Of a stretch of DNA of 39,924 bases, positions 1 to 39,547 are shown piece after piece. Numbering within the stretch: the stretch's first letter is position 1; the number at the start of each line of letters is the position of its first letter. Under the pieces are notes generated by a model. The model was not told where the DNA came from and made no database searches. It saw only the letters and a program-made list of their open reading frames with translations. The DNA lies in IMG/VR virus record IMGVR_UViG_3300044527_000590, positions 1 through 39,924 of that record. The stretch is one strand, 5' to 3'. The DNA comes from a virus. Position numbers and translations under genes: made by a program.

Positions 1-47
1 TTATTCCGGCATCTGGAACATCAACGGTGTCGTTTTTGGAACTGTAA
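1..47 (+). CDS. 3' end of secreted phage tail-associated protein (partial)
   Basis: The window opens inside a reading frame whose last 14 codons and TAA stop are identical to the end of the complete gene at 37702-38178. The base identity continues without a break into the following fibre gene. It is therefore the tail of a second copy or allele of that gene, cut by the window edge. Confidence 0.75.
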   Translation, partial: IPASGTSTVSFLEL

Positions 48-127
48 TTGGAGGGGTTGATTATGAAAAAGATGCTTTTTGCGTCGGTGATGGTTTGTCT
101 GCTTGAGTTTGCGTGTACTTGTCGCGG
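1..127. repeat. Direct repeat, copy A (exact match to 38132-38258)
   Basis: Bases 1-127 are identical to 38132-38258. The first mismatch is at base 128 (G here, C at 38259). The repeat covers the end of the upstream gene, the GGAGGGG ribosome site and the signal-peptide codons of the fibre gene. Weaker similarity continues to about base 335. An exact run of 127 bases starting at the contig edge is what a de Bruijn graph break with k = 127 would leave, so this may reflect assembly of two fibre alleles and not a physical terminal repeat. Confidence 0.9.
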
Positions 128-1916
128 GGAGTCCGGGGTTGAGTCAAAGGTTATTCCTGCCGGCAACATTCCTATGTCGATCCGTCCGGGACTGCTTGGC
201 GACTCCGGGGTGGCGGCTGGTGATCTGGCTACTGTGAACGACCTCGCCACCAAGCTCTCCATCTCCAATATCACCCAAACCGTCACCTCTGGCACCGACA
301 CGGTGCCGAGCAACAAGGCGGTGCAGGATGCGCTGGATGAAAACCTAATCGTTATCCCAAACGCACTTTATGCGGTAGCGTCAAACCAATGTTTTGTAGG
401 ATTTGATAATCTAATATCAGCTGATTATAAGGATTATTGGTGGGATACTTCTGGTGCTGGTCAGCAGTTTGATTGGTCGTGGCAATATACACCGACTAAC
501 AATGCCTCTGATTTTTCCCTCATGATTATACGCGGAACCCGATTCAACAATAAGATACTATCAAGTAATCAAATACCTGTTTATGTCGGGACGCTGGAAG
601 ATGGAGCAAGTGGACTCGGTTTTACAAATGCGGTAACTACGTTAAGCACGACTCCGGCGGCAGTTGGAACTGTATCTGCAACGATAACAGGGTATGGACA
701 GCTTCGCTCATTTACATCTAAATTTAACACTGTGAATATTCCGGTAGTGGTTGGAAATACTGGAGGAACCACCGGAGCTATTGACCGTATTGCCGTTGAA
801 ATCAGGAACATTATCTACACGGCTGGCGACAATGGGAATGTGACAAATGTTCAAACTGGGTCAATCGTCGCGACGGGTAGCGTTTCTGTGGCCTCTGCAA
901 ACACGACAAACCTAGATGTTTCGGTTACGCTGAATAAGACTATTCTTCAGTCGGACATTACAGGAAATTGTCTTTTTGTTGGGTATCGGGCTTTCAAGTC
1001 CGATGGATTAAACGCCAGCGTTTTGAGAGTAACTGGTACAGCGAGTGACATTGTTGCTACAAACAACCAGTCTCACTACTTTTGGAATAATGTAACGAAC
1101 TGGATGGATTTTTCCGGTGACGGGAACATGGGGATTAAACTTGCGCTGGTCGGCGTATCTCCGACAAACAAAATCCTCTGTGTTGGTGACTCTACTACGG
1201 CTGGCGGACAGTGGGTTTATAGGATGACAAGCCTTGCATCAAACGATTTGATGAAGATCGTTACACTTGGAACAAAAACCAACTCGGCATACGCTGGTAA
1301 TTTTCATGAAGGAATTTCGGGGTGGACGTGGAACGCTTTTACATCAAGCACATCAAGCCCGTTTGTTGCGGCTGGTGTTTTGAATATGAGCAACTATTTC
1401 GCCAATGTAATTTCAAATTCACCGGATTATGTGCTTGTCCATCTTGGGATTAACGATACATATCTCGCAACCGACGCATTGACTGACGGCGGGATACTGG
1501 CGCAGTGGACATTGGATTACCCGCGCATCACTAATTTTATTGCACAGGTTCTTGCATACAATCCATCAGCTAGAGTTGGTCTTGCTATGACGATACCACC
1601 CGCGTATGAGCAGTACGCCTTTGGTGATGATTATAACGTAGGGAAAACTCGCTACAGACAGAAAAGAAACCAGTTGTTGTACGCTAAGTATATTCAAGAT
1701 TCATTCTCAACATACAACACGAACTCCGTATTTGTCATTCCGGTATATGCCTCATTGGACTCTCTCTATAATTTTTCAACGGGTGACTATGCCCCAAATA
1801 TCCACAATACAAATACTATTGTCAGGCAAAGCAATGGAGTACACCCGGCTACGTCAGGATATTACCAGATGGGTGACGTGCTTTGGGCGTGGCTGAAATA
1901 CATCGTTGTGAGGTAA
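63..1916 (+). CDS. Tail spike/fibre with signal peptide and C-terminal SGNH (GDSL) hydrolase domain
   Basis: A probable receptor-binding tail spike that would deacylate surface glycans. The ATG at 63 is chosen over an upstream TTG because GGAGGGG lies six bases before it. Of 617 residues, about 1-24 form a Sec-type signal peptide. Residues 25-95 are an anchor shared with the fibre at 38194-39303. A middle beta-rich region follows, and about 370-617 is an SGNH hydrolase: GDS with Ser377 (block I), GIND with Asn464 (block III) and GVHP with His594 (block V). The residue three before the histidine is Asn591, where the family usually has Asp, so the triad may be altered. The gene is followed at once by small membrane-protein genes. 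The fold call is strong, but the role as a virion spike is inferred from the shared anchor and position. Confidence 0.8.
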   Translation: MKKMLFASVMVCLLEFACTCRGESGVESKVIPAGNIPMSIRPGLLGDSGVAAGDLATVNDLATKLSISNITQTVTSGTDTVPSNKAVQDALDENLIVIPNALYAVASNQCFVGFDNLISADYKDYWWDTSGAGQQFDWSWQYTPTNNASDFSLMIIRGTRFNNKILSSNQIPVYVGTLEDGASGLGFTNAVTTLSTTPAAVGTVSATITGYGQLRSFTSKFNTVNIPVVVGNTGGTTGAIDRIAVEIRNIIYTAGDNGNVTNVQTGSIVATGSVSVASANTTNLDVSVTLNKTILQSDITGNCLFVGYRAFKSDGLNASVLRVTGTASDIVATNNQSHYFWNNVTNWMDFSGDGNMGIKLALVGVSPTNKILCVGDSTTAGGQWVYRMTSLASNDLMKIVTLGTKTNSAYAGNFHEGISGWTWNAFTSSTSSPFVAAGVLNMSNYFANVISNSPDYVLVHLGINDTYLATDALTDGGILAQWTLDYPRITNFIAQVLAYNPSARVGLAMTIPPAYEQYAFGDDYNVGKTRYRQKRNQLLYAKYIQDSFSTYNTNSVFVIPVYASLDSLYNFSTGDYAPNIHNTNTIVRQSNGVHPATSGYYQMGDVLWAWLKYIVVR

Positions 1917-6648: not shown

Positions 6649-6667
6649 AATAACCAAGGAGACGAAA

Positions 6668-7108: not shown

Positions 7109-7569
7109 ATCCGTTTAAACCATTGCCGACCGAGGAACTGGCGCGGAAGCATTTTGACAAACCTGAAGCCCGGGCAAAGGGCGTTATAAGCACAGATCCG
7201 CATGTGTGGATTGTGTACTGGCCGGACACCAATACGGTGCGGTTTTACAACGAGGCCGGCGTTGAGTTGCGACCGATGGGCGACCGTCTGGAAGATGGCG
7301 AGACCGAAGCCAGTGCGGAAGAGGCCGCTGTGATTATCCATTTTATGTCTGATTTTCTGGGGGCACAAAACGCCATTCGCACAGACATGCACAATCGCAA
7401 GATTCCGCGCTCGGTGCAGAGCTGGGAAGAGTTGAATGCAGTGACGGACGCCAATGTGTATCTGGAAGAGGCGTTTAACCGGGAAGCCGGCGAGCAGAAA
7501 GCCTGCGACTGGTGCAATGTACTGATTGAGAACCTACAAAAGTGGCTTGAGCATAACGCTAAGCGCTGA
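7105..7569 (+). CDS. Hypothetical early protein (154 aa)
   Basis: ATG at 7105 overlaps the stop of the previous gene. It is a soluble, acidic protein with a small beta region (VWIVYWPDTNTVRFYNEAGVEL) followed by helices (EEAAVIIHFMSDFL, NVYLEEAFNREAGEQ). No family or motif is recognised. It sits directly before the DNA methyltransferase. Confidence 0.6.
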   Translation: MNPFKPLPTEELARKHFDKPEARAKGVISTDPHVWIVYWPDTNTVRFYNEAGVELRPMGDRLEDGETEASAEEAAVIIHFMSDFLGAQNAIRTDMHNRKIPRSVQSWEELNAVTDANVYLEEAFNREAGEQKACDWCNVLIENLQKWLEHNAKR

Positions 7570-7578
7570 GTGATAAAT

Positions 7579-9018
7579 ATGAAATTTATATCGGTATGCT
7601 CAGGAATTGAAGCGGCAAGCGTCGCATGGGGGCCGCTCGGCTGGAAGGCTGTCGGATTCTCCGAGATCGAGCCGTTTCCGTGTGCGGTGCTGGCGCATCA
7701 TTATCCGGATGTGCCGAACTATGGCGATTTAACGAAATGGAAGGAGTGGGGAATTGAAAGAGGAACAGTCGATGTTATTTGCGGTGGAACACCATGCCAA
7801 AGTTTCTCCGTCGCTGGACTGCGAAAAGGACTGGATGATCCGCGTGGCAACCTCATGCTCGTCTTTCTTGCGCTTGTTGACGCAGTACGGCCCCGATGGG
7901 TGGTATGGGAGAACGTCCCCGGAGTCCTTAGTTCCAACGGCGGACGGGACTTTGGTGCCTTCCTCGGAGGGCTGGGGCAACTCGGCTACGGGTGGGCCTA
8001 CCGGGTGCTTGACGCTCAATACGTCAGAGTGGACGGGTTTGAGTGTGCCGTTCCGCAACGTCGGCGGCGTGTGTTCGTTGTCGGATGTCTTGGAGACCAA
8101 GCCAGTGCCGCAGCGGTACTTTTTGAGCAAAACTGCCTGTGCGGGAATCCTGCGCCGAGCCGAGAAGCGGGGAAAGGATTTGCCGCCTCAGTTGGAAAAG
8201 GCGTTGAAGTCGGTAGCCATTGGGACGGCAGCGGAGTCCATCCCAGCATAACGCAGAGCCACAACACGGGCGGGATAGGTCAGAGCAATCAGGAGATTTT
8301 TAGTCAGCGTGGATGCGGCCTTGTTGAAGCCCATCGAATGGTCGCTTTCGGTGAATACGAAACGGACGGAACCGCGTCGGCTATGAAGGCGCGTGATTAC
8401 AAAGACGCAACTGACCTTATTTCCTGCCTAATGGATCAAGGCGGTTCGGTGATGAACGTCGAGAACGGAATCACCGGAACGCTTCGCCGCAAAACCAAAG
8501 GACATGAGCCGATTATCTGTTGCGCCGAAGTCTCGCCTTGCATGACGGCGGGCGGCGCACCGTTCGAGCGCACCGGCAACGAGCGCACCGAGTGCGAGGC
8601 GATTGTGGCCTTTTCATGCAAAGACAACGGGCGGGATTGTCAAGCAAACATCGCGCCGACAATGAGAAGCATGGGGGCTGATGGGAGCCATGCGAACGGA
8701 GGCGGTCAGCTGGCGATTGCGATCCACGACAAAGCCACTCGGCACAACGGCGGCGGTGATTCTCGCAATGGTGACGGCGGATTAAACTGCTCGATGGTCG
8801 CACAATCCATGTCCGTCCGACGCTTAACGCCGACCGAGTGCGAGCGGCTGATGGGATTTCCAGACAACTACACGGCTATTCCCTGGCGCGGAAAACCAGC
8901 AGAACTTTGTCCAGACGGACCGCGCTACAAAGCTCTCGGCAACTCTTGGGCTGTCAACTGTGCCCGGTGGGTTGGAACACGGATTCAGATGGTGGAGGAT
9001 TTGAAGGAAATGCTGTAG
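7579..9018 (+). CDS. C5-cytosine DNA methyltransferase (Dcm-type)
   Basis: 479 residues; ATG 7579 is preferred although GTG 7570, just after the previous stop, is possible. It transfers methyl from S-adenosylmethionine to C5 of cytosine. Motif I is SVCSGIEAAS (5-14), motif IV GGTPCQSFS with catalytic Cys73, motif VI WENVPG (110-115), motif VIII QRRRR (160-164), and motifs IX-X RRLTPTECERLMGFP and GNSWAV at the C-terminus. Residues about 170-410 are an unusually long target-recognition region. No partner endonuclease is visible, so it is an orphan enzyme that probably protects phage DNA from host restriction. The recognition site cannot be read from sequence. Confidence 0.9.
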   Translation: MKFISVCSGIEAASVAWGPLGWKAVGFSEIEPFPCAVLAHHYPDVPNYGDLTKWKEWGIERGTVDVICGGTPCQSFSVAGLRKGLDDPRGNLMLVFLALVDAVRPRWVVWENVPGVLSSNGGRDFGAFLGGLGQLGYGWAYRVLDAQYVRVDGFECAVPQRRRRVFVVGCLGDQASAAAVLFEQNCLCGNPAPSREAGKGFAASVGKGVEVGSHWDGSGVHPSITQSHNTGGIGQSNQEIFSQRGCGLVEAHRMVAFGEYETDGTASAMKARDYKDATDLISCLMDQGGSVMNVENGITGTLRRKTKGHEPIICCAEVSPCMTAGGAPFERTGNERTECEAIVAFSCKDNGRDCQANIAPTMRSMGADGSHANGGGQLAIAIHDKATRHNGGGDSRNGDGGLNCSMVAQSMSVRRLTPTECERLMGFPDNYTAIPWRGKPAELCPDGPRYKALGNSWAVNCARWVGTRIQMVEDLKEML

Positions 9019-9899: not shown

Positions 9900-10117
9900 T
9901 CTGGAAGTTTTGGCGGAGAGGGAAGTTCGTTGATTCTGAGCAGTTGCGGCGGGTGGTGAATCTGATTCCGGAGTATGTGGATGCTCTGATCGATGAGCGG
10001 ATGGGTCGGCGGGCCCAGGCGGAAGGGCTGGACGGCCGTGAATTGCACGGTCCGGCGGAGCGCAAGCTGAAGAAGATCGAGGGGCGTCTGGCGGAGCTGA
10101 TCGGGGGTGGGCGGTGA
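9896..10117 (+). CDS. Hypothetical helical protein (73 aa)
   Basis: ATG at 9896 overlaps the previous stop. It has a charged N-terminus (MIWKFWRRGKFVDSEQ), then helices (LRRVVNLIPEYVDALIDERM, ERKLKKIEGRLAELI). The last residues, RLAELIGGGR, are nearly identical to the end of the next gene because a 26-bp segment is duplicated at both gene ends. No function is recognised. Confidence 0.5.
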   Translation: MIWKFWRRGKFVDSEQLRRVVNLIPEYVDALIDERMGRRAQAEGLDGRELHGPAERKLKKIEGRLAELIGGGR

Positions 10118-10119
10118 GC
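10088..10119 (+). repeat. Duplicated gene-end/start module, copy 1
   Basis: 32 bases matching 10627-10658 at 31 positions, 26 of them (10094-10119) in an unbroken identical run. It encodes the end (AELIGGGR) of one gene, a G-rich ribosome site and the overlapping GTGA stop-start of the next. The two copies bracket the YfbR-like gene exactly, which suggests cassette insertion or duplication. Confidence 0.7.
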
Positions 10120-10656
10120 TGGATCCAAACCTATACGGGCAAAAAATTTGATGTGCGTCAGCCGCGGCCGGAGGATGTTTGCTGGATGGATATTGCGCAT
10201 TCGCTGTCTCAGCAGTGCCGGTTTAACGGTCACACGAAGCATTTTTACAGCGTGGCGCAGCATTGCTGGATTATGAGCCTTAATGTTCCACAGGAGTTTG
10301 CTCTTTACGCTCTGCTTCATGATGCGGCGGAAGCCTATATCGGGGATATGCCGGCGCCGGTGAAGCAGTTGTTTCCGGAGTTTTCTGTGATGGAGGACAT
10401 GCTGCTGTCGTGCATCTATAAGGCGGCGGGCATTCCTGAGCCGTCTGCAGAGGCGCTGGCCGTCGTGAAGGAATACGATCTGCGGATGCTGATGACGGAG
10501 CGCCAGCAGTTGCTGGGTGAACCGCCGGAGCCGTGGCTGCTGGATGGCATGGGGATTAAGCCGTTGGATATTCAGATCGTGTTAGAAGAACCATCTCATG
10601 TGTCAGCTGAAGATTATCTGGAGCGGCTGGCTGAGCTGATCGGGGGTGGGCGGTGA
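10114..10656 (+). CDS. YfbR-like HD-domain 5'-deoxynucleotidase
   Basis: 180 residues; GTG start at 10114 overlapping the previous stop (GTGA), with GGGGGTGGG as ribosome site. HD ligands are His50 (SVAQHCW), His69-Asp70 (LLHDAAEAYIGDM) and later acids, in the arrangement of YfbR-type phage enzymes that dephosphorylate deoxynucleoside monophosphates. A role in reshaping the nucleotide pool during infection is likely. The final eight residues come from the duplicated 26-bp module. Confidence 0.8.
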   Translation: MSWIQTYTGKKFDVRQPRPEDVCWMDIAHSLSQQCRFNGHTKHFYSVAQHCWIMSLNVPQEFALYALLHDAAEAYIGDMPAPVKQLFPEFSVMEDMLLSCIYKAAGIPEPSAEALAVVKEYDLRMLMTERQQLLGEPPEPWLLDGMGIKPLDIQIVLEEPSHVSAEDYLERLAELIGGGR

Positions 10657-10658
10657 GC
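10627..10658 (+). repeat. Duplicated gene-end/start module, copy 2
   Basis: Second copy of the segment at 10088-10119. It again supplies the C-terminal LAELIGGGR, the ribosome site and the GTG start of the following gene. Confidence 0.7.
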
Positions 10659-20224: not shown

Positions 20225-21178
20225 ATGCTGAAATTCATTCTTTGGATGTTTTTCCCGTTGCTTCCGATGGTCCGGTATATTGGCGAAGACGGAGCAGGCG
20301 GCGGTGGATCCGGCGGCGGTGACGGCGGCGGTGACGGCGGAGGATCTGGTGACGGTGGATCGCGCAGCATGGAAATTCCTCCCGATGGTGGAAGGACAAA
20401 GACTCCGGCCGGCGGCGGTGATAAGCCGTGGTTTGAGTCTGCCGGGGTTGATCCGGCCCTCCTGACCGATAAGGACAAGGAATATAAAACCCTTGGCGAC
20501 TATGTGAAGGGTGCGCAAAGCGCCCGGCAACTGGCCGCGTCGAAGGGGATTCCTCTGCCTGCCAAAGATGCCACACCGGAGCAGAAGGCGGCGTTTCAGG
20601 CCGAGGTGATGAAACACTTTCCCGATCTGCCGGTGGCGCCGGAAAGTGCCGACAAATACGAAATCCCGATGTTCAAGGATTCCGGACTGCCGGAAACTCG
20701 GCAAAAGGCAATTACCGGAGCGTTTCATAAGGCCGGATTGAGCAACAAGCATGCGCAGGCTGTGATGGATATCTATTCCGATCAGGTGGCGCAGGACATG
20801 GAGGATGCTCAGGCGCAGATTGCAACCCAGCGAACAGCCACGGATGCCGAGTTAAAAACCGAATGGGGGGCCGCGTTTGCGGATCGCCAGGCGGGGATTG
20901 ACCGGATTGGCGAAAAATATCCTGAACTGTTTTCCGTGATGAAGTCGGTCGGGATCGATGCGCGCAAGGACTTCCGCGTCATGATGGACGAAGTGGCTCG
21001 CAGTATCAGCGAAGACCATCCGGGAGGAAGCGGCAAGGAGTCGGCGGACGGTATTGAAACGCAGATCACCGAGCTGCGGACAAAGATCAAGGGAACCGAA
21101 AACTCGCTTGAACGGCAGAAACTGATCAAACAGGAATCGGAATTGTATAAAAAACGCGATGCGCTGCGGAAAAAATAA
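20225..21178 (+). CDS. Scaffold (capsid assembly) protein with hydrophobic N-terminus
   Basis: 317 residues. After a Gly-rich, disordered segment (about 20-45) the protein is highly charged and helical (QKAITGAFHKAGLSNKHAQA, EDAQAQIATQRTATDAELKT) and ends in a coiled-coil and basic tail, the usual plan of podovirus scaffolds placed directly before the capsid gene. The first 16 residues (MLKFILWMFFPLLPMV) are strongly hydrophobic. A start at ATG 20267 would remove most of them, but it has no better ribosome site than GAAAGG before 20225. If 20225 is correct, the scaffold could dock procapsids at the membrane. Confidence 0.7.
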   Translation: MLKFILWMFFPLLPMVRYIGEDGAGGGGSGGGDGGGDGGGSGDGGSRSMEIPPDGGRTKTPAGGGDKPWFESAGVDPALLTDKDKEYKTLGDYVKGAQSARQLAASKGIPLPAKDATPEQKAAFQAEVMKHFPDLPVAPESADKYEIPMFKDSGLPETRQKAITGAFHKAGLSNKHAQAVMDIYSDQVAQDMEDAQAQIATQRTATDAELKTEWGAAFADRQAGIDRIGEKYPELFSVMKSVGIDARKDFRVMMDEVARSISEDHPGGSGKESADGIETQITELRTKIKGTENSLERQKLIKQESELYKKRDALRKK

Positions 21179-21190
21179 ATCCGGGTAAAA

Positions 21191-21207
21191 CTGGATGCGT
21201 ATATAGG
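21191..21207 (+). promoter_or_regulatory. Late promoter-like element, copy 2 (CTGGATGCGTATATAGG)
   Basis: 17 bases identical to 37655-37671; the core TGCGTATATAG is also at 17627. It lies between scaffold and capsid genes and runs straight into a terminator stem. A transcript started about seven bases after TATATA would lack the 5' arm of that stem and so escape it, while transcripts arriving from upstream would form the full hairpin. Confidence 0.55.
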
Positions 21208-21232
21208 GGCGAGGGAATACCTCGCCCTTTTT
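21207..21232 (+). terminator. Rho-independent terminator after scaffold
   Basis: GGGCGAGG (21207-21214), loop GAATA, CCTCGCCC (21220-21227), then TTTTT. The eight-base perfect stem and T run are typical. It overlaps the promoter-like element just before it. Confidence 0.75.
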
Positions 21233-21377
21233 CTTTGGGCTGAGCCCCTCCATCCGCGTGGATCGCGGCGGGTGGCGGCGCAACCGCAAGCAAGCCCCCT
21301 CCTTCGGAGGAACACGGTGAGCGAATGGTGAGAAATCACGGTTTGTTAACTGAAATGTAAAAACGAAGGAGAAGAAG
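21233..21377 (+). promoter_or_regulatory. Capsid gene leader with small hairpins
   Basis: About 145 bases without a gene. It contains ATCC-GCGT-GGAT and CCTCC-TTC-GGAGG hairpins and ends in AAGGAGAAGAAG, a strong ribosome site for the capsid gene. A long structured leader before the most abundant protein may stabilise the message or pace translation. Confidence 0.35.
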
Positions 21378-22433
21378 ATGAAAATTATGTTTATTGGAAA
21401 TCCAGTCTTGGCCTTGCTGAGCTGGTTGCTTGCTCCGGCGGTGCGCTTCGCGTCGCAGGATACTCATATGTTCGAGCAGTTTACGGCCAACGTAAAAGAC
21501 CTGCTCGGTGAACATCCGGCCCACTCTATTCTGGCGCACATGTGCGAAGAAGAAGCGGGATCCGGCAAAGGCGTGTGGATCAACGGAATCAGTGCTGCGG
21601 ACAGCGACGATGCAGTCAGCAAAGCATTGACGGCCAAAGACACGGTGAAGGAATACCAGCAGCTGGCCGCTGAAAGTCAGACCTGGGACAACTTCAAAAA
21701 GACCATTACTCCGTTTAACGATGTAATGAAGATGGTCAGCTGGTCCGCTCCGAGTCTGGTTGAATGGGGTCACTCGTTCGACGAAGACGAAGAATGGCAG
21801 CATCTGGCCGATCCGAAGGGTTCCACGGTTAACGTCGGTATCCGTAAAATCTTCAAAGACCGCGATGAGCTGTTCCTTGCCGGTGCTACGGCCGCAACCG
21901 TCAGCCGCAAATCCAGCGACAATGAAACCCTGCACTCGGTTTCTCTGCCGGCGACCCAAACTCTAGATGACATGACCTATGCAGACATCGATGTCGACAG
22001 TCTGCCAAGCATGATCTGCGAGAAGTTTGACAATGTTTGGTATGCCAAGGGCAGCCCGATCTATTGCGCAATTTCCGCAACGATGGCGCGGCATTTCCGC
22101 AAGAACAGCCGCAACCAGATTCATAACACGGACTTCGTGCGCAGTTATGAGCACTTCATGCAGGGAACGATCCCGGACATCGACGGTGTAACCTTCATTG
22201 TCCTGCCTAAATCCATGATGGCCTCCATCACCGGCGAAGGCGCGGTAGACTCCTATGTGGCATGGGTTCCCCAGGCTATCAACCGGGTCATGTACAGCGG
22301 GTTCAAGACCTCGACCTCTACTCAGGGGTTGCTGCGTGATACGCAGTTGGTTTACATGCGCGAAAAAGAAGACTTCAAGCGCATCGACGACCTCGGTGTA
22401 GTCGTTGGCGATATCGTCGCCGCGGCGCAATAA
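21378..22433 (+). CDS. Major capsid protein with signal-like N-terminal extension
   Basis: 351 residues, preceded by AAGGAG at ideal spacing. Its position after the scaffold, its size, and landmarks such as WDNFKKTITPFNDVMK, GHSFDEDEEW and a viral beta-domain (DIDGVTFIVLPKSMMA) fit a podovirus HK97-fold capsid protein. Residues 1-24 (MKIMFIGNPVLALLSWLLAP) form a basic-then-hydrophobic segment resembling a signal peptide, which is odd for a cytoplasmic assembly protein. The next methionine (about residue 31, MFEQFTANV) has no good ribosome site, so the segment is probably translated and may be cleaved on maturation. Confidence 0.75.
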   Translation: MKIMFIGNPVLALLSWLLAPAVRFASQDTHMFEQFTANVKDLLGEHPAHSILAHMCEEEAGSGKGVWINGISAADSDDAVSKALTAKDTVKEYQQLAAESQTWDNFKKTITPFNDVMKMVSWSAPSLVEWGHSFDEDEEWQHLADPKGSTVNVGIRKIFKDRDELFLAGATAATVSRKSSDNETLHSVSLPATQTLDDMTYADIDVDSLPSMICEKFDNVWYAKGSPIYCAISATMARHFRKNSRNQIHNTDFVRSYEHFMQGTIPDIDGVTFIVLPKSMMASITGEGAVDSYVAWVPQAINRVMYSGFKTSTSTQGLLRDTQLVYMREKEDFKRIDDLGVVVGDIVAAAQ

Positions 22434-22496
22434 CGGACGGCCCCGGTCGCAAGGCCGGGGCTTCCATAGTTTGAAAATTAATTGAAGGGGTTGAAA

Positions 22497-22919
22497 ATGA
22501 AAAAAATGACAATTATGGCAGTGATGGCGGCCGTGGCGCTGGGTGTGCAGGCTGAGAAGTATGTGACGGTGGGCGTTGCTCCCGGAACGAACAACGTGGC
22601 AACCATTACGCAAAGTTTCGCGGCGGTAGCCATTCCGGTGGCGATCTACACGGAACTGACCGGAACGACCACGAACGCGGTGACGATTGGTTTTACGCCG
22701 TCGGTTGCAACGAATGCGGCTGACTATGGCAAAACCTACCGGATCGGCTCGTTTTCGACGGTTGGCGGTGCGGAAGCTACGGTGGTGATGAACGATCCTC
22801 TGAATACCAATTCGGCTGGCACGGTTATCATGAATCGCGGCGATGCTATGCCTCTTACCGGCGCCGGCGGCACAGCCAGCACGAACGTGTTTTATCGGGT
22901 TGTATTCAAGCTGCCCTGA
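22497..22919 (+). CDS. Secreted-type head/decoration candidate
   Basis: 140 residues from ATG 22497 (after GAAGGGG). A clear signal peptide, MKKMTIMAVMAAVALGVQA, is followed by a beta-rich Thr/Ala/Gly/Asn domain. In podoviruses the gene after the capsid often encodes a decoration or head-fibre protein, but an N-terminal Sec signal is unexpected for one. It could instead be a host-surface protein made late. No family is recognised. Confidence 0.55.
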   Translation: MKKMTIMAVMAAVALGVQAEKYVTVGVAPGTNNVATITQSFAAVAIPVAIYTELTGTTTNAVTIGFTPSVATNAADYGKTYRIGSFSTVGGAEATVVMNDPLNTNSAGTVIMNRGDAMPLTGAGGTASTNVFYRVVFKLP

Positions 22920-22992: not shown

Positions 22993-24354
22993 ATGCCGGT
23001 ACATGCAAATTTCGTGGATACGCTGGAGCAGGTTGGTGATCTGGCGCTGGGAAAAGTCGGAGAGAAAAAGCGTCTGACAAACATTGAAACGGATACCGGC
23101 AACCATGCAGAGGTAATACGGCTGTTTATTCACCAGGTGATCCGCGAAGTGCAGAGTGAGTTTCGCTGGTCTGAGCTGACCAAATCGGTCGAGCTGGAAA
23201 GCCCGATCGCTGAGAATGATGATACGTATCAGTACACGCTTCCGAGTGACTTTCTACGTCCGGCCAGCAATCGTGATCAGGACTATGTGATTGAAAATGG
23301 CTATCTGTTCACCTCAGTAGCTGAAAACTTCCCGTTCCGGTACATTCGCTATTCGGAAAATCCAGCGGAGTGGAGCGGTTTGATGGTGAAATGTGTGTTT
23401 TTCCGTCTGGCGCTTGAAATCTGCATGCCACTGACTGAGAACGCGCAGAAATACAACAGCCTGCTTGAAGAGTACGAAAAGGTTGTTTTTCCCCGGGCTA
23501 AGATGGTGGGGAGTTTTGACACGGAAAATCCGCGTCCACGCATTGCGCGGGGCCGGTACAGCCGGACACGCGGAGGGGTGGGCGGAGCGATCGCCGGCGC
23601 ATTCAACCGGGTGATTGGCGTGATAGCTCCCGGGCATAATCATGATGTTGATTACGTTTCTTTACACGGAACGGATCAGGTGGCTGAAGAGAATTTGCAA
23701 AGCGGTTCGGTTACGGCCGTCAAGCTCGCGGGCGATGCCACGGCACTGATAACAGACGGTGACGCGGCGACGTTGGCATCGGCTGAAAGCTATGCGGATG
23801 CGGCTGATGTGGTTGCGCTTGCGTCGGCGGCTTCGACTGCTGATTCAAAGGATGCTGCCGTTCGGGTGGCTCTGCTGCCTAATATTGTTTATGCAAAAAA
23901 AACCACAGTCGAAACAATTACCGGTGCAAATCCCGGCCCGAACTGGACAAACATTGCCGATATGGTTGCAACAATTACCCCTCGGCTGGCAACGTCGAAA
24001 CTGCGGATTCGTGCTGTAATTTACGGGCAGGCTACATCATCCAGCTATCCCATTGTTCTTAGAATTACGCGTGATGCTGCAGCCATTGAACTGGCAACAG
24101 ACAAGGGGACAAACCGCACGGCGTGTCACGGATTGATAGGATATTTTTACGAAGCGCACGAAATGGGATGTTCGGTTATAGAGCTGATCGTTGAGGCAAC
24201 GGACGCCAGTGCTACGGTTTTCAGAGTTCAGGCCGGAATTTTATCAAACAGCACAAATACCGGGATGATCAACCGGAGTCAAACCGACACCGACACAACG
24301 CTATTTCCTCGTTGCATCAGTACGCTCACGGTTGAGGAGATCTTCACAGCATGA
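22993..24354 (+). CDS. Tail tubular protein A (gp11-like adaptor) fused to a fibre-like domain
   Basis: 453 residues. About 1-185 form the helical adaptor of T7 gp11-type tail tube A proteins (MPVHANFVDTLEQVGDLAL, TNIETDTGNHAEVIRLFIHQ, FRWSELTKSV, LPSDFLRP). After a basic linker (RGRYSRTRGGVGG), residues 215-290 carry HNHDVDYVSLHG and Ala-rich helical coils, and 295-453 a beta-sandwich domain that looks like a fibre tip. Standard gp11 proteins end near residue 200, so the extra 260 residues are a fusion that may make the adaptor ring also display fibres. Confidence 0.7.
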   Translation: MPVHANFVDTLEQVGDLALGKVGEKKRLTNIETDTGNHAEVIRLFIHQVIREVQSEFRWSELTKSVELESPIAENDDTYQYTLPSDFLRPASNRDQDYVIENGYLFTSVAENFPFRYIRYSENPAEWSGLMVKCVFFRLALEICMPLTENAQKYNSLLEEYEKVVFPRAKMVGSFDTENPRPRIARGRYSRTRGGVGGAIAGAFNRVIGVIAPGHNHDVDYVSLHGTDQVAEENLQSGSVTAVKLAGDATALITDGDAATLASAESYADAADVVALASAASTADSKDAAVRVALLPNIVYAKKTTVETITGANPGPNWTNIADMVATITPRLATSKLRIRAVIYGQATSSSYPIVLRITRDAAAIELATDKGTNRTACHGLIGYFYEAHEMGCSVIELIVEATDASATVFRVQAGILSNSTNTGMINRSQTDTDTTLFPRCISTLTVEEIFTA

Positions 24355-27569: not shown

Positions 27570-29228
27570 ATGGGCCGCATACCGATGGATTTGGGAGTGA
27601 ACTACCAGCGCAATCCGGAGCCCACGGCCGTGCCGCGCGGTTTTGGCATGGAGCGATTTAACAAGGTTGCCGAGCGCGGGCAGGTGATTGCCGGGCTGGG
27701 GGCGAAAGTGGCGGACATTGCCACCGATTACGCGGCCAAAAACAAGCAGGCGGATCTGCGGGCGGATGCGCTGGCGGCGCAGTCGCAGTTTAAGATTATT
27801 CAAACTGAAGCACAGTTGAAGGCATCTGAGACCGATGATCCGAATGAAATCCGGCAGATTTGGGCGGACGCACACGGACAATACAGCAGCTGGGTGGTCG
27901 GGAAGTCGGAAAAGGGTGTTCCAAATATCCGCTGGAGCGATCAGCAGAAGGAGATGGTGACGGCTTCAGATGCCCTGCAGGGAGAGTTTCGCACGACGGC
28001 CGAGCTGAGGATTGCTGAGGTTGGCAAGCGCAACAGCAACGCCAAGGCTTTGCAGGCGCAGCGGGATGCAGAGATTGCCGGTGATCGGGAAACCATCACT
28101 CAGGCGGTGCAGGTGCGAATTGAGAACGGCACGCTCACGCGAGAAGAGGGAGAGGTTGAGCGGCGGGCATCTTTCCTGAAGTCGGATTTGACTCTGGCGA
28201 ATAACAACATTGTGAATATCGGGAAAATGGAACCGGCCAAAGCGCTGGAAGCGGCTGATCAGTTTGAAAAGTTATTGATGGCCAAAGATGAAAAAGGCAG
28301 ATGGCTGCGGTTCGAGCATATTCCTGAAAAATCCTCCGATCCTCGCGCGAAAACCAGAGACCAATTAATAAAAGAAGCTCATTCGGAAGCGGTTGCTTCG
28401 GCCAATCGCATGAAAGCCGAGGATGAATTACAAGTCACGATTAGCGATTTTGCTTATATGGATGCGGTGAAGAAAAAAGGCGGGGCGCTGTCACCGGCTG
28501 AAATGATGGGTCTGAATCTTCGGCCTGAAACTCTGAAAAAGGTTCGTGATCTGGAAAAAGAGCAGGCCAAAGAAAAAGCAGCAACCCCGGAATATGCGCT
28601 GGAAATGAATCGCCTGGTCCGCGCCTATGATGCCAAGGCGGATTCTTCGTCTGATGAGCAAATCAAATTACAGGCTAAAATCATGGCGATGCCGGACGGG
28701 GCAAACAAAACCATGCTGATCAATCAAATTGAACTAAAAGCAGCAGGTGCAGGAAACCGTCTGATGAAGGTCGAGCCGGATGATGTAAAAGATCTTCAGG
28801 CTTCGATCACGGATCAGCTGCTTGATCTGGTTGAGCGGGCAAATTTCGACGGGAAAAACGAATATTCTGGCGGACGCTATAGCAAAACCACCACAGAGAC
28901 CGGTCAAAAGGTAGGGGTATTCCACGGTGATTTGTCGATTGCGGCCGGGGCAGTGCAGAGCATGGTGGATAGCTATGTTGCCAAAAACAAGCCGTCCGCC
29001 GATCAGCTGCTGGATTGGTACAACACGAATCCGTCCATCAAGTCCTTGCGCGATGATCTGAAGCTGAAGGATTTTATTGGCCGTTTGCCGTCCATGCTGG
29101 GATCGATGCCGGCCGCGTCGTCCGGACAGTCAAAGAAACCGCTGAAAGATTCGCTGAGCGGGCAGTTTTCAGGCGGTAATGTTACGGATCAGCAGGATGC
29201 TTTTATGAAATTTTTGGGGGGGAAATAA
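27570..29228 (+). CDS. Internal virion protein, gp15-like
   Basis: 552 residues, almost entirely helical, beginning MGRIPMDLGVNYQRNPEP and with GFGMERFNKVAERGQVIAGLG. Size, position and helical content match podovirus gp15-type ejection proteins that form a periplasmic tube for DNA entry. No enzyme motif is visible. The stop overlaps the start of the giant gene (TAATG). Confidence 0.7.
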   Translation: MGRIPMDLGVNYQRNPEPTAVPRGFGMERFNKVAERGQVIAGLGAKVADIATDYAAKNKQADLRADALAAQSQFKIIQTEAQLKASETDDPNEIRQIWADAHGQYSSWVVGKSEKGVPNIRWSDQQKEMVTASDALQGEFRTTAELRIAEVGKRNSNAKALQAQRDAEIAGDRETITQAVQVRIENGTLTREEGEVERRASFLKSDLTLANNNIVNIGKMEPAKALEAADQFEKLLMAKDEKGRWLRFEHIPEKSSDPRAKTRDQLIKEAHSEAVASANRMKAEDELQVTISDFAYMDAVKKKGGALSPAEMMGLNLRPETLKKVRDLEKEQAKEKAATPEYALEMNRLVRAYDAKADSSSDEQIKLQAKIMAMPDGANKTMLINQIELKAAGAGNRLMKVEPDDVKDLQASITDQLLDLVERANFDGKNEYSGGRYSKTTTETGQKVGVFHGDLSIAAGAVQSMVDSYVAKNKPSADQLLDWYNTNPSIKSLRDDLKLKDFIGRLPSMLGSMPAASSGQSKKPLKDSLSGQFSGGNVTDQQDAFMKFLGGK

Positions 29229-32200
29229 TGGCACGCGGACAATTCTCTGATGAACAGCTGGATTTGCTTTCTGAACGGGTTCCCATGGCGGCGGTTGAGC
29301 GTCCGGAGGTTGACCGGATGCTGCGGGAGCGGACGCAACGGCGGGTATTGACCGGACTGTATGAGCATGAGCGGACGGTGGGCGTGGCGGATGCTGACAA
29401 GCCTCTATTTATCAAAGCATTTGGTGCCGGGCTTGGGCTCGATTTGCGGGATCGTACATCGGAAGAGGCGGTTGAGTTTTTATCCGGAAGTCCGGATGTG
29501 AATGAGAGTTTTGAGCGGGTGCGTTCCAGCTTGAAAAAGCTACACGGAGAAGAGGGTATTGATCCGTTTCTTGGCCTGAGTGGCGACGAGCAGGCTAAAC
29601 GGGTGAGGAACATCAAGGAATTTGAGCAACTGCAAACCGGAGTGAAGGCGGCAGTCGGCGTACAGCCCGGGTCTATGGTTCCGTCCATGCCACCAATTAA
29701 GCCTGTTACGGATGCAGAGGTGGCTGCCGGAGTGACAAAGCAGAAAGAGGATGCGTTCTGGAGTTCTCCCAAGCTGGTACGGGATGCGCTGTGGCCTAAA
29801 ATGGTTCCCGAAGCTCAGCAGGCGGCGGTGAAGTCGATTTTCTACAAGAATCCAGCGCGGGCAATGGATGCGATCGATCCTCTTCTTGAAGGTCTGCCAC
29901 CTGAACAGATCAGGATGTTTTCGGCAGTGGCGCTGGCGGCGCGTCCGGAGCTGAAGAAAAGTTTTGATGAGCGTTTTGGACTGACGTTTGAAAAGGTTTT
30001 CCAGCGCCGGAAAGAGAACGCCAAGTATTTTGTGCGCTCGATCGGCGCGGAGCGTCCCGGCAATCCTCTGGGCTTTTACAATGCGGCGCAGGATGTCTTC
30101 GGAGAAAACGGGTTTGAAGCCTATCTTGAGAATCCGGACGCGGAGGGCGGTAAAAAGTTTGAACAGCTTCGTAAGCGGGCAGAGCAGGATTTTAATACGG
30201 TGGCGATGCCCGGCATGAGCGGAATGGAATACCGTCAGCTTCCGCAGAAAGTTCCGCTGAGTGATGAGGATCTGGTGGGCTTTTACAAAGCCGGTAAACA
30301 GCAGGTCGATTGGGAAAAACGCTATCGCGCTGTCAGTAATGCGGTCGTGGAGAAATACAAGCCTCTGCCGTCTTTTCAGGAATACATGCTGGGCGGGCAT
30401 GAGGTAGTTGTGGACATGGTTTCACTGGCGGCGGCAACGTATGCCGGAAATATCGTCGCTCCGGGTTCTGGTACGGCCTTTGCGCTGGGTGCAACGTGGA
30501 TGGATCACCAGGCGGAGATGGAGCGCACGCTGATTTATGACCACGGCATGAAGCCGGTGGACGCCAAGTTGTGGACGGGCCTTGCGGCCGCTCCGTATGC
30601 TGCCATTGAATACGCCGAGATAAAGGGGTTCTCAGATTTCAGTTTCCGGGGGTTGGAAACGGCCAACCGGAGTTTAAACCGCAGCATCCCGAATCTGTTC
30701 ATGACCTATTTTCCGCAATATCTGAAGCGGGCCGGTGTGGGGACGGTCAAGGAAACCGGTGAAGAGGTTCTACAGGGCGCTGTAGATTTTGCGCTGATGG
30801 AGACCGTCCGCAATCTATACGAGACTGAAGGGCTGACGTTTGACGGGAATGCAAAGGCATTCTGGGATGAAGCTGTTGGGGCCGTCAAATACATGTGGAT
30901 GGCCGGTCTGGTTGGCGGGCAGGTAACGGGCGCGATGCAGGGCACGGCGGATGTTCTACGTGGAGGCGGGGTAAAAGGGTTTTTTGCACCTGAATTTAAA
31001 ATGGCCGTGCGCGACCGTACTTTGCCGCTGGAAGAGTTTGAGGCTGAGGTTGGGTTGAGACGCGCCCGGACGGATGCAACGCGCCTACGGGCTGAAAGCG
31101 GCTTTAAGGATGGCGTTCCTGAAAACGTGCTGGAGCTGGTCCGCGTGACGCGCGGGGATGATGTAAACACGGAAGTTGACATTGAAAGCGAGATTTCGAA
31201 GCTGGGCTATGAAAATCCGGCCGCTGTGGTGGAAATGGCCCATGCGGAGCTGGACGTGCGCGATAAGACGCGGGAAGTCATTCAGTCGAAGATTAACACG
31301 CTGGACCGGATGATGGATGCGGAGCGCGGGCAGGATGAATTTGTAGTGCCGAAGAACGGGCCGAAGTTCGGTATGGTGGAGTTGGCACTGAACGGCTGGG
31401 CATCCGGGCTGGATGTTGCGCTTGACGTAGTGGCAACTCCGGAAGAGTTTTCGCAGAAGTACGGGGTTGGTGAGGGGGTGGCCGTCAAGGCGGCCAACAT
31501 GCGCAAGACGGGCGGCGGATGGCAGGTTGTGCTGGTAGACTCAATGCTAAAAAGCAACGCGGATGCCTATGCGCAGTTCCGGCATGAGGTGCTGGGGCAT
31601 GTCGGCTTTGATCTGTCGAAGAATGGGCCGGAAGTTGTCGGGCGGATTGCCGGGCTGGTCGGGCTGGACTATATCAAATCGCGGCTTCCGCAATATGCGA
31701 AGCTGCACGAAGCGGGCAAACTGACGGATGCCGGGCTAGTGCAAGAGTTTCTGGCAGTGCTGGCTGGCGATCTGCGCCGGGCGTCGGCTTCGGATGCCGA
31801 TAAAGGGATGCTGGAAAAGCTAAAAGAAGGCTTTGTGCGGTCGCTCGGTGTTGAAAGTGCAGGATCCATGACGGCGCGTGAAGTGGTTGATCTGGCGCGG
31901 CAGGTGATGGGCGAAGCATTCAAGGCCGGATCGATGCAGAAGAATGACGGTTCAGGTTCTCAGCGGGCTTATGACGAACAGCAGAAAAACGCGGGCAAAG
32001 ACCTGAAAAAGCGCAAGGCCGCTGCCGAAAAACAGATTCAGCAGATGGCGGACGAAAATCCGGTTATCAAGATGGTGTTGGAAAACGGCGGGGTGCAGAT
32101 GCCGGCTGGCAAGGAAAAGAGCTGGCCGGAAGAGTATCAGGCAATACCTAAGCGGTTTCGTGGCGTAAAGGGCGCGGGATTGTCTCTTGACCAGCTGGCG

Positions 32201-35200
32201 GATCAGGCGGCGGCTCTCAAGGGAACCACGGCGGATTATTCCACGTCGGAATTTCGGGCGGAGTTGGAGGCTTTTGAAGCGAAGGCGGAGCGGATCCTTG
32301 CGGATGCGGAACAGGGGACAGGGGTCGGGAGTCAGGAATCAGCCAATGAAGAGCAGCAGCTGCTTGCTGATCTGGAGTCCGGGAAGATCACCGAGGATGA
32401 ATATAATGCGGCTATGGCGGAGTTGACGGGTGCGCGGTTTTCGGTGGAGCAGCTTGGGTTTGATCTGGGGGGTGCGGCGGATCAGGCGCAAACGGGCGGA
32501 CTGTTTGATGGCGTGAAGTCGCCCGGTCGGCAAACTTCTTTATTTAATCAGTCGAAAGCGGCGGAGTCTGCTCTAGGTGCGGAGTTGTTTTCTGATGAAC
32601 AGAGGACGGCGCCGCTGGCGAAGAAAAAGATTCAGGATTTCGGCGAGGTGATTCATGGCGCGCGCAAGCACTACGCGGAAGAGTATCTGTCGCGCGCTAA
32701 ACAGGGCGAGCTGCTGGATGTGGCGGCTGAGCCGATGTCGAAGAGCTGGCCGGAGCCGGATTATCAGAAGCTGCTAGACGGCGGGACGGATGCCGGGGTG
32801 GTGGCCTTTATCCATGCCTCCAGGGATGAGGTGCCGAACAAGCCGCGTTCGGGCTGGAAGCTGCGGAAGTATGTGCAGGTGGTGGATCAGTTGCGCGGGC
32901 TGTCAAATCAGCTTCTGCGTGGTGAGATATCGTCCGAAAACATCCGGGCGCTATTAAGCCGTCCGGAATTTTCACAAATCAGCCTGAATGTGGGCGGTCG
33001 GGCGGAGCTGTACGCCAAAGTTGGGCACGCAAAGAGTCTGAAGGGCGTTTATGTGACGCAGGGTACATACACCATGTTTAATGGTGTGCCGTATTCCCCG
33101 GCGAAAGTCATCTGGTCTGTAGAAAAACGGGAAAGCAATTCTCAGAGTGGGAACTGGCCGCGGATGATGGCAACCGGTGAAAGCCGGCAAGAGGCTGTGG
33201 AAAAGTTTGCGGCGGCCTATGCTGGTTTTAATGATGCCCAGAAAAAAGGAAAAGAGGTTGAGTTCAACCTGTACCGTAAGCGCGGGCAGGAAGGCGTAAT
33301 TGTCGGTAAAAAAATCGGACGCAATTATGTGGATCTGATGGTTTTGCCGGATGTGAAGGCGGCGCGCGACTATCTGAAAAACAACAGGGCTGAGCTGGAG
33401 CGTAAGCTGGAGGATTATAAGAAGATCCCGGAAGAGCGCCGCGCTGAAAACTCTCCACGCGTTGGAGATGACTACCGGAAGGGTAGCGACGTTACGCCGG
33501 AGCAGTTCCAAAACACATTTGGTTTTCGCGGGGTGCAGTTCGGAAACTATGTTGAGGATGATCGTCGGCAGGCTGATTTGAATAATGCGTATGACGCGCT
33601 GATGGATTTGGCCTTGCTACTGGATATTCCTCCGGCGGCTGTTTCACTGAATGGAGAGTTGGGATTGGCATTCGGTGCGCGTGGGCATGGAGGTAAAGAG
33701 GCTCCCAGCGCACACTATGAGCCGGTGCAGGTTGTGATCAACCTGACTAAACGCGCAGGGCCCGGCTCGCTGGCGCATGAGTGGTGGCACGCACTGGACA
33801 ACTATTTTTCTCGGACGGGCGGGAAGCCTGCCGGATATATGACAGGGGTTATTCCAGGTACCGCAGGGGTTCGTCAGGAAATGGTGCAGGCGTTTGGAAA
33901 CATTCAGGAGGCTATCCGCAAAAGCGGTCTGCCGGAACGCTCTAAACTGCTGGATGCTCGCCGGTCAACTCCGTACTGGAGTGAGATGATCGAGATGTCG
34001 GCCCGAACATTCGAGGCGTTTGTGAAATCCCGGATGGATCAAACGAACATCGAAAACGACTATCTGGTTAATTTTAAGGACATGGTGGATTACATTGTGC
34101 AGAGCTTTGCAGCTAAAGAAATGTATCCCTATCTGCTGGATGAAGAAAAAGATGCGGTTAATTCCGCGTTTAATGCGCTTTTTGAAACGGTGCAAAGTCG
34201 TGAAACTGAAAAAGGCACGGCGCTGTTTTCCATCGAGCAGATGGAAGACGGCCGGCGGGCGGTGGTGCTGGAGATGGCGCGGCTGATTATGGCGGATCAG
34301 GAACGCGGCGCGACGAAGAGCACGGTAACAAAAGCCAAGGTGCAGGAAACGCTGATTAGCGTCGGGGTGCGGGCGGACAAGGCCATGGCGCAGGAGGATC
34401 TGGAACGCGCTAAGGAGATTGTTGGTCTGGTGCGGGCACAGCGCAGCATGGGAGGAGATTTGAACCGGCTGATGGCGCAGGCTGAAATCAATACGCATTA
34501 CGGCCGTCAGCTGGAAGAGGCCCATAAGATGGGTGAGCGCGGCGGGCGCATCTGGCAACAGGCGCAGGATGAGGTGGATCAGCGGCGCAGCGAGCGGATT
34601 AAGTATGCCAGGCAGATTGCGGTCGGTCTGACGTCCGGCGAGCTGGATGACAAAAACCATATCGATCTGGAAAACCTCTGGAAGAAGCTGATTATTGAAG
34701 AGCGGGTACGCAAGCCGCGCCAGGCGAAGGAAACGGATAAGGAATACGGAGAGCGTCCCAAGGGCACTCCGTTGCCGGATGATTTGAAGCTGGATATTAC
34801 CAACGACGAATACGCGCTGGAGATCCGGGACTGGCTGCATGAAGTGCGCCGGGCGGTGTATCGTCAGCTGATGTTCAATAAAGCTCCGGTGCCGATGGAG
34901 TTTCAAAAAGCGTGGAAAGATCCGATTGTGAAGGCGGCCTACATGCAGACGGTGGAAAACCTGTTGCGCGAAAAGGTGCAGGATCTGACCTATGGAGAGA
35001 AGCGCGACAAGCTGGTGAAACGCATTGAAGATCTGGGAACCCGCAAGCAGCTGGACAAATACGAAAATGCCGTGGCTGGCATTATGGATGAGATGTTTAA
35101 CACGGCGGTTGATCAGAACCGGCAGGAATGGATTTCTCAGGCGTGGACGGAGTTGGAAAAGGTTGGCGGAGCGCTTAAAAGCCGGCAGAGCAAGTATGCC

Positions 35201-37701: not shown

Positions 37702-38178
37702 ATGAAAAAGATTATCGCTGTCCTGTTTGTATTGGCCGCTTGCATGGTTTCCAGAGCCGAGCAGTGGACCATGACCATCACCAGTTCAACGCGCTGCATC
37801 CCGGCGCAGAGCATCGCCACCAACCTGATCACCACCTGGACCAACGGCATTGCCGTGTCGGCCGGCGGTTACTACAAAAACTCATCCGGATTGACGTATA
37901 TGGCCGTGACTGCGGGCACCGGTACCAACGCACCGACTCACCGGATCGGCAAGGCATCCACCACCGACGGCATAAGCTGGCTGTTTTGCAGTCCAACCAT
38001 TGGACAGAAGGGCGTTGTGGCCTGTGTGATGGCCGGCAACGAGGTGCATTACAACCGCAACGCGGCCGCAACCACGAATATGCCTTGGACGGTGAAGAAC
38101 ATCTTTGATCCGGCGCGGGGTGACTGGCGCTTTATTCCGGCATCTGGAACATCAACGGTGTCGTTTTTGGAACTGTAA
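37702..38178 (+). CDS. Secreted-type tail-associated protein (158 aa)
   Basis: ATG preceded by AAGGAG. MKKIIAVLFVLAACMVSRA is a clear signal peptide, followed by a beta-rich Thr/Ser/Asn-rich domain (QWTMTITSSTRCIPAQSIAT) that looks like a fibre base or chaperone. No family is recognised. It directly precedes the fibre gene and is also the gene whose 3' end opens the window. Its place between ejection protein and fibre fits a connector for the fibre. Confidence 0.6.
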   Translation: MKKIIAVLFVLAACMVSRAEQWTMTITSSTRCIPAQSIATNLITTWTNGIAVSAGGYYKNSSGLTYMAVTAGTGTNAPTHRIGKASTTDGISWLFCSPTIGQKGVVACVMAGNEVHYNRNAAATTNMPWTVKNIFDPARGDWRFIPASGTSTVSFLEL

Positions 38179-38258
38179 TTGGAGGGGTTGATTATGAAAA
38201 AGATGCTTTTTGCGTCGGTGATGGTTTGTCTGCTTGAGTTTGCGTGTACTTGTCGCGG
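38132..38258. repeat. Direct repeat, copy B (exact match to 1-127)
   Basis: The internal copy of the repeat at the window start. Divergence begins at 38259 and rises towards the fibre tip. The distance between copies, 38,131 bases, would be the unit length if the genome is circular. Confidence 0.9.
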
Positions 38259-39303
38259 CGAGTCCGGGGTTGAGTCAAAGGTTATTCATGCCGGAAACAT
38301 TCCAGTATCCATTCGTCCGGGACTGCTTGGCGACTCCGGGGTGGCGGCTGGTGATCTGGCTACTGTGAACGACCTCGCCACCAAGCTCTCCATCTCCAAT
38401 ATCACCCCAACCGTCACCTCCGAAACGAACACGGTGCCGAGCAATAAGGCGGTGGATGATGCGCTGGCGTTGAAGGTAGATAATAACAACGGCACAGCAA
38501 CCAACCTTTCCGTTTCCGGAGGCTTAACAGTAAGCGCGGTTTATTCTAACGCCAGCACAACAATTTCAGGTACCAATGCTGGAACTTACGCTGGGGTTTA
38601 CGTGTATCACCATACCGACCCGACATATTCCGACGTTTTTACTAACTCTGCCGGTTTGTTCCTTTTCTCAAATGTTGATCAATATTATGCAGGAACTTAT
38701 GCGCTCGGCGCGTCCGTTGGGAGTAGTACATATTGTGGTAATGACTCGGTGTGGGTAGATGGTGGAACCGGTGCCCCGGCGGATGTTATCCAGACGGGCA
38801 CACCGGCACACAATTTGATTGACAGCGGAAACCTGACCATGAATGGGGTAAACCCCAGCATTTCGCTACCTCTGTATACCGGCGGGGGCGCATGGCTTGT
38901 CAGTGGCGGGAACAATATTGGCACTGGTTCGATGGGCCTTGTACTCAATAGTCCATTTGCTTTTGTGCTGAATAGCGATTTTACAGCAAATAAAGGATGG
39001 AATGGTTTTGCTTTGGCTATCGGCCAGACGAATTATTGTAGTTTTTCCACAACCTTTGGCGGCTGGGGTGAGTCCCTTGGCCTGCCAGATCAGCCGAATT
39101 TCTTCATGTACAACGACTACTCTTATTACAACTCACTGGGCGGTGATATTGCCTATATAATAGGCCTAGTGTCACAGGTCTACAAGATCAACTATCGGTT
39201 GATGCTTAACCCTGACGTAATTCCAACATCACGCACAAACGCTTTAATCGGTGAAATTTATGTAGACGGAACAAACGAAGTTTTAAAAATTCGATTAGAT
39301 TAA
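38194..39303 (+). CDS. Tail fibre with signal peptide, alternative tip without SGNH domain
   Basis: 369 residues from ATG 38194, after GGAGGGG. Residues 1-95 match the spike at 63-1916 with only about ten changes and end in VPSNKAVDDALALKVDNN, a typical fibre hinge. The remaining 270 residues are a different beta-rich tip (GGLTVSAVYSNASTTISGT, SLGGDIAYIIGLVSQVYKIN) with no hydrolase motifs. The tip DNA is more AT-rich than the anchor, which suggests exchange. It is an alternative receptor-binding module. Confidence 0.75.
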   Translation: MKKMLFASVMVCLLEFACTCRGESGVESKVIHAGNIPVSIRPGLLGDSGVAAGDLATVNDLATKLSISNITPTVTSETNTVPSNKAVDDALALKVDNNNGTATNLSVSGGLTVSAVYSNASTTISGTNAGTYAGVYVYHHTDPTYSDVFTNSAGLFLFSNVDQYYAGTYALGASVGSSTYCGNDSVWVDGGTGAPADVIQTGTPAHNLIDSGNLTMNGVNPSISLPLYTGGGAWLVSGGNNIGTGSMGLVLNSPFAFVLNSDFTANKGWNGFALAIGQTNYCSFSTTFGGWGESLGLPDQPNFFMYNDYSYYNSLGGDIAYIIGLVSQVYKINYRLMLNPDVIPTSRTNALIGEIYVDGTNEVLKIRLD

Positions 39304-39313
39304 AAGGAACACT

Positions 39314-39547
39314 ATGAGAAAAATTATTATATTGTTATCGCTTGCGCTGTTTTGTCTGGTTGTCGCTGCTGAACCGGTTTTTCTAAAGTCTGTGGTTATT
39401 GCAGATAAATCAAATACCACGGTTCGGGTGATATATGTCAAGGATGGCCTTGTTTACAATGTCAGTTCCACTTCGTCTGTATCCAACCAAATCCCAGACA
39501 TTGACGCAAAGATTGCACAGTTGAAGTTGCAAGCGGGGCTTAAATAA
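39314..39547 (+). CDS. Small secreted protein of the second fibre module
   Basis: 77 residues; AAAAGGAAC precedes the ATG. MRKIIILLSLALFCLVVAA is a signal peptide; the mature 58 residues are beta-rich (VFLKSVVIADKSNTTVRVIY) with a helical end. It occupies the place of the 50-residue membrane protein after the first spike but is unrelated. Possible fibre chaperone or lysis accessory. Confidence 0.55.
   Translation: MRKIIILLSLALFCLVVAAEPVFLKSVVIADKSNTTVRVIYVKDGLVYNVSSTSSVSNQIPDIDAKIAQLKLQAGLK

Follow-up and report, generated by a model that had tools for sequence, protein, structure and literature searches.

Two kinds of hydrophobic N-terminal segment on late proteins of a BPP-1-like podovirus hint at assembly steps at the host membrane

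Seven late genes of a 39,924-nt viral contig (the window, i.e. the whole stretch of DNA that was analysed) encode proteins starting with a basic-hydrophobic segment. As judged from sequence, the segments are of two kinds: classical Sec signal peptides on the product of the gene after the capsid gene and on the fibre-cassette proteins (genes 22497, 37702, 38194, 39314 and 63, named by their first positions) versus shorter, less hydrophobic leaders on the scaffold and capsid proteins (genes 20225 and 21378; ‘head leaders’). The original prediction was right about the starts and N-termini of all seven ORFs; its view of the seven as one thing was not supported, as the head leaders differ from the Sec signals in hydrophobicity, in an Arg stop and in conservation. 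We see an even chance that these are two unlike elements, with the 22497 and fibre proteins exported by Sec and the head leaders acting as docking helices rather than export signals. The cytoplasm is generally regarded as the site of all tailed-phage assembly. The segments hint that part of virion assembly may take place at the host membrane or outside the cytoplasm.

The window carries a BPP-1/epsilon15-like podovirus head module, as indicated by a PF12236 portal and a head gene order matching that of BPP-1 (Table 1). Podoviruses of the BPP-1/epsilon15/HTVC010P type have in common this portal family and the order portal, small genes, scaffold, capsid, (cement), tail tubular A, tail tubular B and internal proteins. 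What sets the window apart from them is that its fibre proteins and the protein in the cement position carry export signals and that its capsid and scaffold bear leaders. The PF19821 match of the capsid scored 30.6 bits (cut-off 25 bits); the predicted capsid model (pLDDT only 30) was uninformative on the HK97 fold, and a PDB sequence search with the capsid profile gave no match. ‘Protease’ labels were weak (PHROG 458 on the scaffold; PHROG 36941 on gene 19820, 0.0056). No tRNA was found in the window or in 12 loci scanned.

Table 1. Features of the window and of the retroelement in relative G007
Feature	Coordinates	Strand	Basis or remark
Phage contig	39,924 bases		podovirus late region
Terminase	15750		in the late region
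Portal	17906		Pfam PF12236 1.6e-63
Scaffold-type protein (317 aa)	20225..21178	+	between portal and capsid; PHROG 3742 6e-17, PHROG 458 1.2e-5
Scaffold leader	20225..20278	+	MLKFILWMFFPLLPMVRY, then Gly-rich linker; leader comparison across lineages
Major capsid protein (351 aa)	21378..22433	+	PF19821 2.6e-7, PHROG 3437 4.2e-7
Capsid leader	21378..21449	+	MKIMFIGNPVLALLSWLLAPAVRF; leaderless relatives begin just downstream
22497, predicted Sec signal peptide	22497..22553	+	...LGVQA|EKY; signal seen in all homologues found
22497, mature part	22554..22919	+	jelly-roll-like (model pLDDT 72); at place of BPP-1 bbp16 (synteny)
Tail tubular A	22993..24354	+	without leader; PHROG 394 1.5e-25, PHROG 6942 3e-9
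Tail tubular B	24351		followed by internal proteins
Internal protein (2806 aa)	29228-37648		LPD5 and LPD1 (large polyvalent protein) domains
Fibre cassette	37702, 38194, 39314, plus 63		63 lies near contig start
Fibre-cassette protein 1	37702..38178	+	predicted Sec signal 37702-37758 (...VSRA|EQW)
Fibre-cassette protein 2	38194..39303	+	Sec-like signal about 38194-38259, then adaptor SKVIHAGNIPVSIRPGLLGDSGV
Small protein	39314..39547	+	predicted Sec signal 39314-39370 (...VVAA|EPV)
Second copy of fibre N-terminus (signal and adaptor)	63..1916	+	GDSL esterase C-terminus (PF13472 1e-8); 300-nt repeat
G007 diversity-generating retroelement (DGR)	L041 5263-7872		fibre gene, VR 6499-6614, TR 6679-6794, reverse transcriptase 6652-7872

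That such segments are unusual for a tailed phage was confirmed. We used a crude rule of our own, not SignalP: a best 10-residue Kyte-Doolittle mean of at least 1.8, starting by residue 15, with at least one K or R before it. The rule was passed by 7 of the 15 late genes of the window versus 2 of the 93 in six control phages that we had chosen ourselves (BPP-1 0/14, HTVC010P 1/20, BUCT708 1/15, 66FD 0/15, T7 0/10 and lambda 0/19), both passing control genes encoding hypothetical proteins. None of 13 scaffold, capsid and cement proteins from five further named phages passed. Late proteins of BPP-1, 66FD, T7 and lambda differ from those of the window in having no such N-termini (0/58), while the segments recur in relatives.

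Scanning viral contigs with the capsid and portal sequences yielded relatives of 60 to 99% capsid identity, a small group of about a dozen contigs. Contigs G001, G003, G004, G007 and G008 were examined along their entire lengths and G002 in part. Cellular-genome contigs scanned with the capsid and with the portal yielded no confirmed relative. Among named phages, tblastn found no match for the capsid, 37702, 38179 or the mature part of 22497; the portal matched 192 records, all below 60% identity.

The capsid leader is present in the window, L002-L008 and L026 (G008), and absent from L016 (G007; its capsid starts MASQNVHMF) and L077 (MATQSHVEV). Every capsid-leader phage has gene 22497 with its signal; in G007 and L077, no such gene lies between those for capsid and tail tubular A. 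Capsid leader and gene 22497 are thus found together in 9/9 records (several near-identical), and neither is found in the other two. The scaffold leader is present in the window, L002-L006, L008, G007 and G008, and overall in seven of the nine phage lineages read. It does not follow these features: G007 has it, and it is absent from L007 (MAEEVADV, with similar upstream DNA) as well as from L077, where gene 22497 and the two head leaders are all missing. In the portal tree G007 groups with G008, in the capsid tree it does not; given these different placements, the co-absences in G007 may stem from one recombination event. Homologues without the segments, which the original prediction had counted against itself, were found in G007 and L077 for the capsid, in L007 and L077 for the scaffold, and in G007 for the fibre and adaptor proteins; they mark the segments as detachable.

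The N-termini of 22497, 37702, 38194 and 39314 have long hydrophobic cores and n-region charges between +2 and +3, and most of them end in an A-x-A-like site followed by E or D. The combination recognized by signal peptidase I (basic n-region, hydrophobic core, small-x-small motif) can be read in 22497, 37702, 38194/63 and 39314, the predicted site of 38194/63 (C-R-G|E) being the weakest. Five ‘textbook’ Sec signals had been claimed; all five look functional by sequence, but just four are independent, since the 5′ ends of genes 63 and 38194 are copies of each other (300 nt, 95% identical). The duplicate (window 1-300 and 38132-38431) covers the end of the 37702 gene and the start of the fibre gene, followed by different C-terminal domains; it suggests duplication or swapping of a fibre-module cassette, or a contig-end effect.

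The mature part of 22497 was modelled as an all-beta domain resembling a jelly roll. Its fold matches (Foldseek, VIA-align) were unspecific: the nearest were nucleoplasmins, along with many viral jelly rolls. Helicobacter phage cement proteins (ranks 21 and 27) and the HFTV1 turret were among the matches listed; the BPP-1 cement protein was not. In comparison with bbp16, which we take to be that cement protein, 22497 has the same place, the same size and a jelly-roll-like model, but no sequence match. Based on model and position, the 22497 product is likely a cement protein. In a neutral simulation from the window sequence, the fractions for hydrophobicity of the 22497 signal were 0.03-0.04 in four of five homologues and 0.11 in one; as hydrophobicity is kept better than drift predicts in these four, selection for it is indicated.

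In five phages, all 18 fibre-cassette proteins have Sec-like N-termini, versus none of two in G007; 17 of the 18 are read from the called start and one (G001 36752) only from an internal ATG, and the near-identical window and G001 are not independent in this count. Dual products from internal starts of fibre genes were considered and rejected, as no internal start is conserved near the cleavage site. The G007 homologues start MKNLTAWTMTI and MRYDPGVQSKSIPAGHIPVSIRPGLL, equivalent to the mature part of the others, and the adaptor SKxIPAGxIPVSIRPGLLGDSG is common to the exported forms and the leaderless G007 fibre. In G003, the fibre protein (L037 2901-4247) has the shared signal and adaptor; its C-terminus had no Pfam match and contains GDSGSP, suggestive of a serine protease.

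In G007 we identified a diversity-generating retroelement, with a reverse transcriptase (RVT_1 7e-18) and 116-nt TR and VR copies, the VR located at the fibre gene end; 17 of the 23 TR-to-VR differences fall at TR adenines. BPP-1 likewise has a DGR, on mtd. Diversification by the DGR leads us to infer that the G007 fibre is an Mtd-like virion receptor-binding protein. Phage DGR target proteins are reported to be without signal peptides (PMC6199706). A lineage with export signals on the cement-position protein and on all fibre-cassette proteins, set beside a sister phage with leaderless homologous fibres, makes a natural comparison, in which one can ask whether virion parts can be added outside the cytoplasm, or how a receptor-binding protein comes to be secreted.

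Secretion through the inner membrane, with cleavage by signal peptidase I, would apply to the 22497 product and to the proteins of genes 63, 37702, 38194 and 39314. Their mature parts resemble modules of virions, namely a cement-position jelly roll and adaptor-bearing fibre proteins. Once exported, they may become part of the particle as holin and spanins let cytoplasm and periplasm mix, or they may have the envelope as their target. Joining particles at lysis is favoured because the adaptor is retained in the exported fibre forms, with a secreted, envelope-acting role nearly as likely. Such export-linked completion of the virion appears possible; export, docking and timing are all steps that we infer.

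There is a considerable chance, if short of even, that the Sec-signal proteins are instead late secreted or surface proteins modifying the envelope or blocking superinfection, with an esterase, a possible protease and a receptor-masking lectin as candidate roles and the C-terminal domain of tail tubular A as the receptor binder. Tail tubular A fits this explanation: it is long in 8/8 leader-bearing phages with the gene read and short in the two leaderless ones, G007 (208 aa) and L077 (215 aa), which lack the fibre-like domain. In phages with the exported fibre forms, the protein is long (378-462 aa) and its C-terminal domain variable, differing wholly even in close relatives (window versus L003). 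The GDSL domain of gene 63 fits as well, and phages are known to encode surface-exclusion proteins. Against this explanation stands the adaptor, kept between the exported fibres and the leaderless, DGR-diversified G007 fibre, which would follow if the two forms continue to dock on one common partner.

Sec signals as such occur in phage genes for SAR endolysins, spanin lipoproteins, surface-exclusion proteins and filamentous-phage coat proteins. To our knowledge, the exported phage proteins described serve lysis, exclusion or as membrane-extruded coat, and not as cement or fibre of a tailed dsDNA phage. JG068 gp47 and gp49 have Sec signal peptides (PMC3765740), and excerpts on two Bacteroides phages mention one or two signal peptides, there not stated to belong to virion proteins (PMC5723332). 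Among the papers listed by our literature searches, we recognized none reporting that a tailed phage has Sec signals on its capsid, cement or fibre proteins.

The head leaders have the form M-K-hydrophobic(8-18)-R-[FY] ahead of a complete protein; compared with the Sec signals, their cores are shorter or contain Pro or Trp. Summed insertion scores ranged from −0.8 to +3.0 for head leaders versus −4.7 to +0.4 for the other segments. The residue directly after the core is Arg in 10 of 12 head leaders and His or Glu in the other two; translocation is made less likely by this Arg and by the marginal hydrophobicity. The head leader would most likely act as a docking helix that keeps scaffold and capsid at the membrane, on its cytoplasmic side, during prohead assembly; a shared partner might take the place of the membrane. 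T4 and SPN3US proheads are reported to be attached to the inner membrane, with assembly in T4 started by portal gp20 with YidC and release after proteolysis by gp21 (PMC9026906). The idea is alike, in that heads would form against the inner membrane from the cytoplasmic side and come free afterwards; unlike T4, the window has the segments on scaffold and capsid, a portal without one and no firmly identified head protease.

A neutral simulation from the window sequence reproduced head-leader hydrophobicity (fractions 0.10-0.61 in 9/9 comparisons, none below 0.05). Since it is kept no better than under neutral drift, a membrane role is weakened. This result speaks for a quite plausible alternative, though one we would not put at even probability, that head leaders never touch the membrane and serve instead as helices for contacts between proteins (scaffold with capsid or with portal), being a more hydrophobic version of a scaffold N-terminal element. 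Judged by eye, a short basic/hydrophobic start before a Gly/Ala/Thr-rich linker is seen in 6 of 10 known related scaffolds (66FD, BUCT708, YeP5, PfDIW6, V1.021 and probably MT835618; not in BPP-1, HTVC010P, SR18 and MW202742); the frequency of such starts also supports a tether function in the scaffold. However, the elements of other scaffolds are shorter and more polar, none passing our hydrophobic rule, and no named capsid examined bears such a leader. Docking helices on capsid and scaffold could also be part of a fuller scheme, which we consider doubtful: cement and distal fibres would be exported by Sec and, at or during lysis, join already DNA-filled particles outside the cytoplasm, with capsid and scaffold held at the membrane by detachable leaders. 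If true, this would be a tailed phage that completes its virion across the host membrane.

A reading in line with the original prediction takes all seven segments as Sec export or membrane-anchor signals, with heads assembled at or across the membrane and cleaved by signal peptidase. Capsid leader and 22497 do come and go together, and leaderless relatives start at a plausible cleavage point. Still, we regard this as improbable. Capsid and scaffold leaders lack the strong core, a convincing small-x-small motif and the freedom from an immediate basic stop expected of signal peptidase I signals; some capsid leaders have a weak A-P-A, but there is no consistent A-x-A, the scaffold leader is absent singly in L007, and export of the capsid away from the packaging motor is implausible.

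Comparison across relatives shows that the head leaders are real and translated, and that phages can lose them. All eight capsid genes compared have AAGGAG or AAGGAGG ahead of codon 1; at the internal HMF codon the upstream match is 0-4 bases. Capsid residue 31, named earlier as a possible true start, is contradicted by the AAGGAG at codon 1 and by G008, where the capsid reads HTFE, not HMFE, and thus has no Met to start from. Leaders differ in length by whole codons only. Leader pN/pS was below 1 in 21/21 capsid and 15/15 scaffold pairs (the pairs are not independent, and many synonymous sites are near saturation), and higher than in the body in 20/21 and 14/15 pairs, respectively. Wrongly called starts, with the true ones downstream, would agree with this weaker constraint and with the two relatives lacking leaders, but are very improbable given the Shine-Dalgarno sequences, the in-frame length changes, the pN/pS values and the fibre genes without conserved internal starts.

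Two minor features lie in other parts of the window. A short ORF (2881-3186) has a lipobox-like N-terminus (LIAFSGC) and probably encodes a spanin-type lipoprotein. A 39-nt direct repeat (92%; 10081-10119 and 10620-10658) is located at the ends of two neighbouring early genes.
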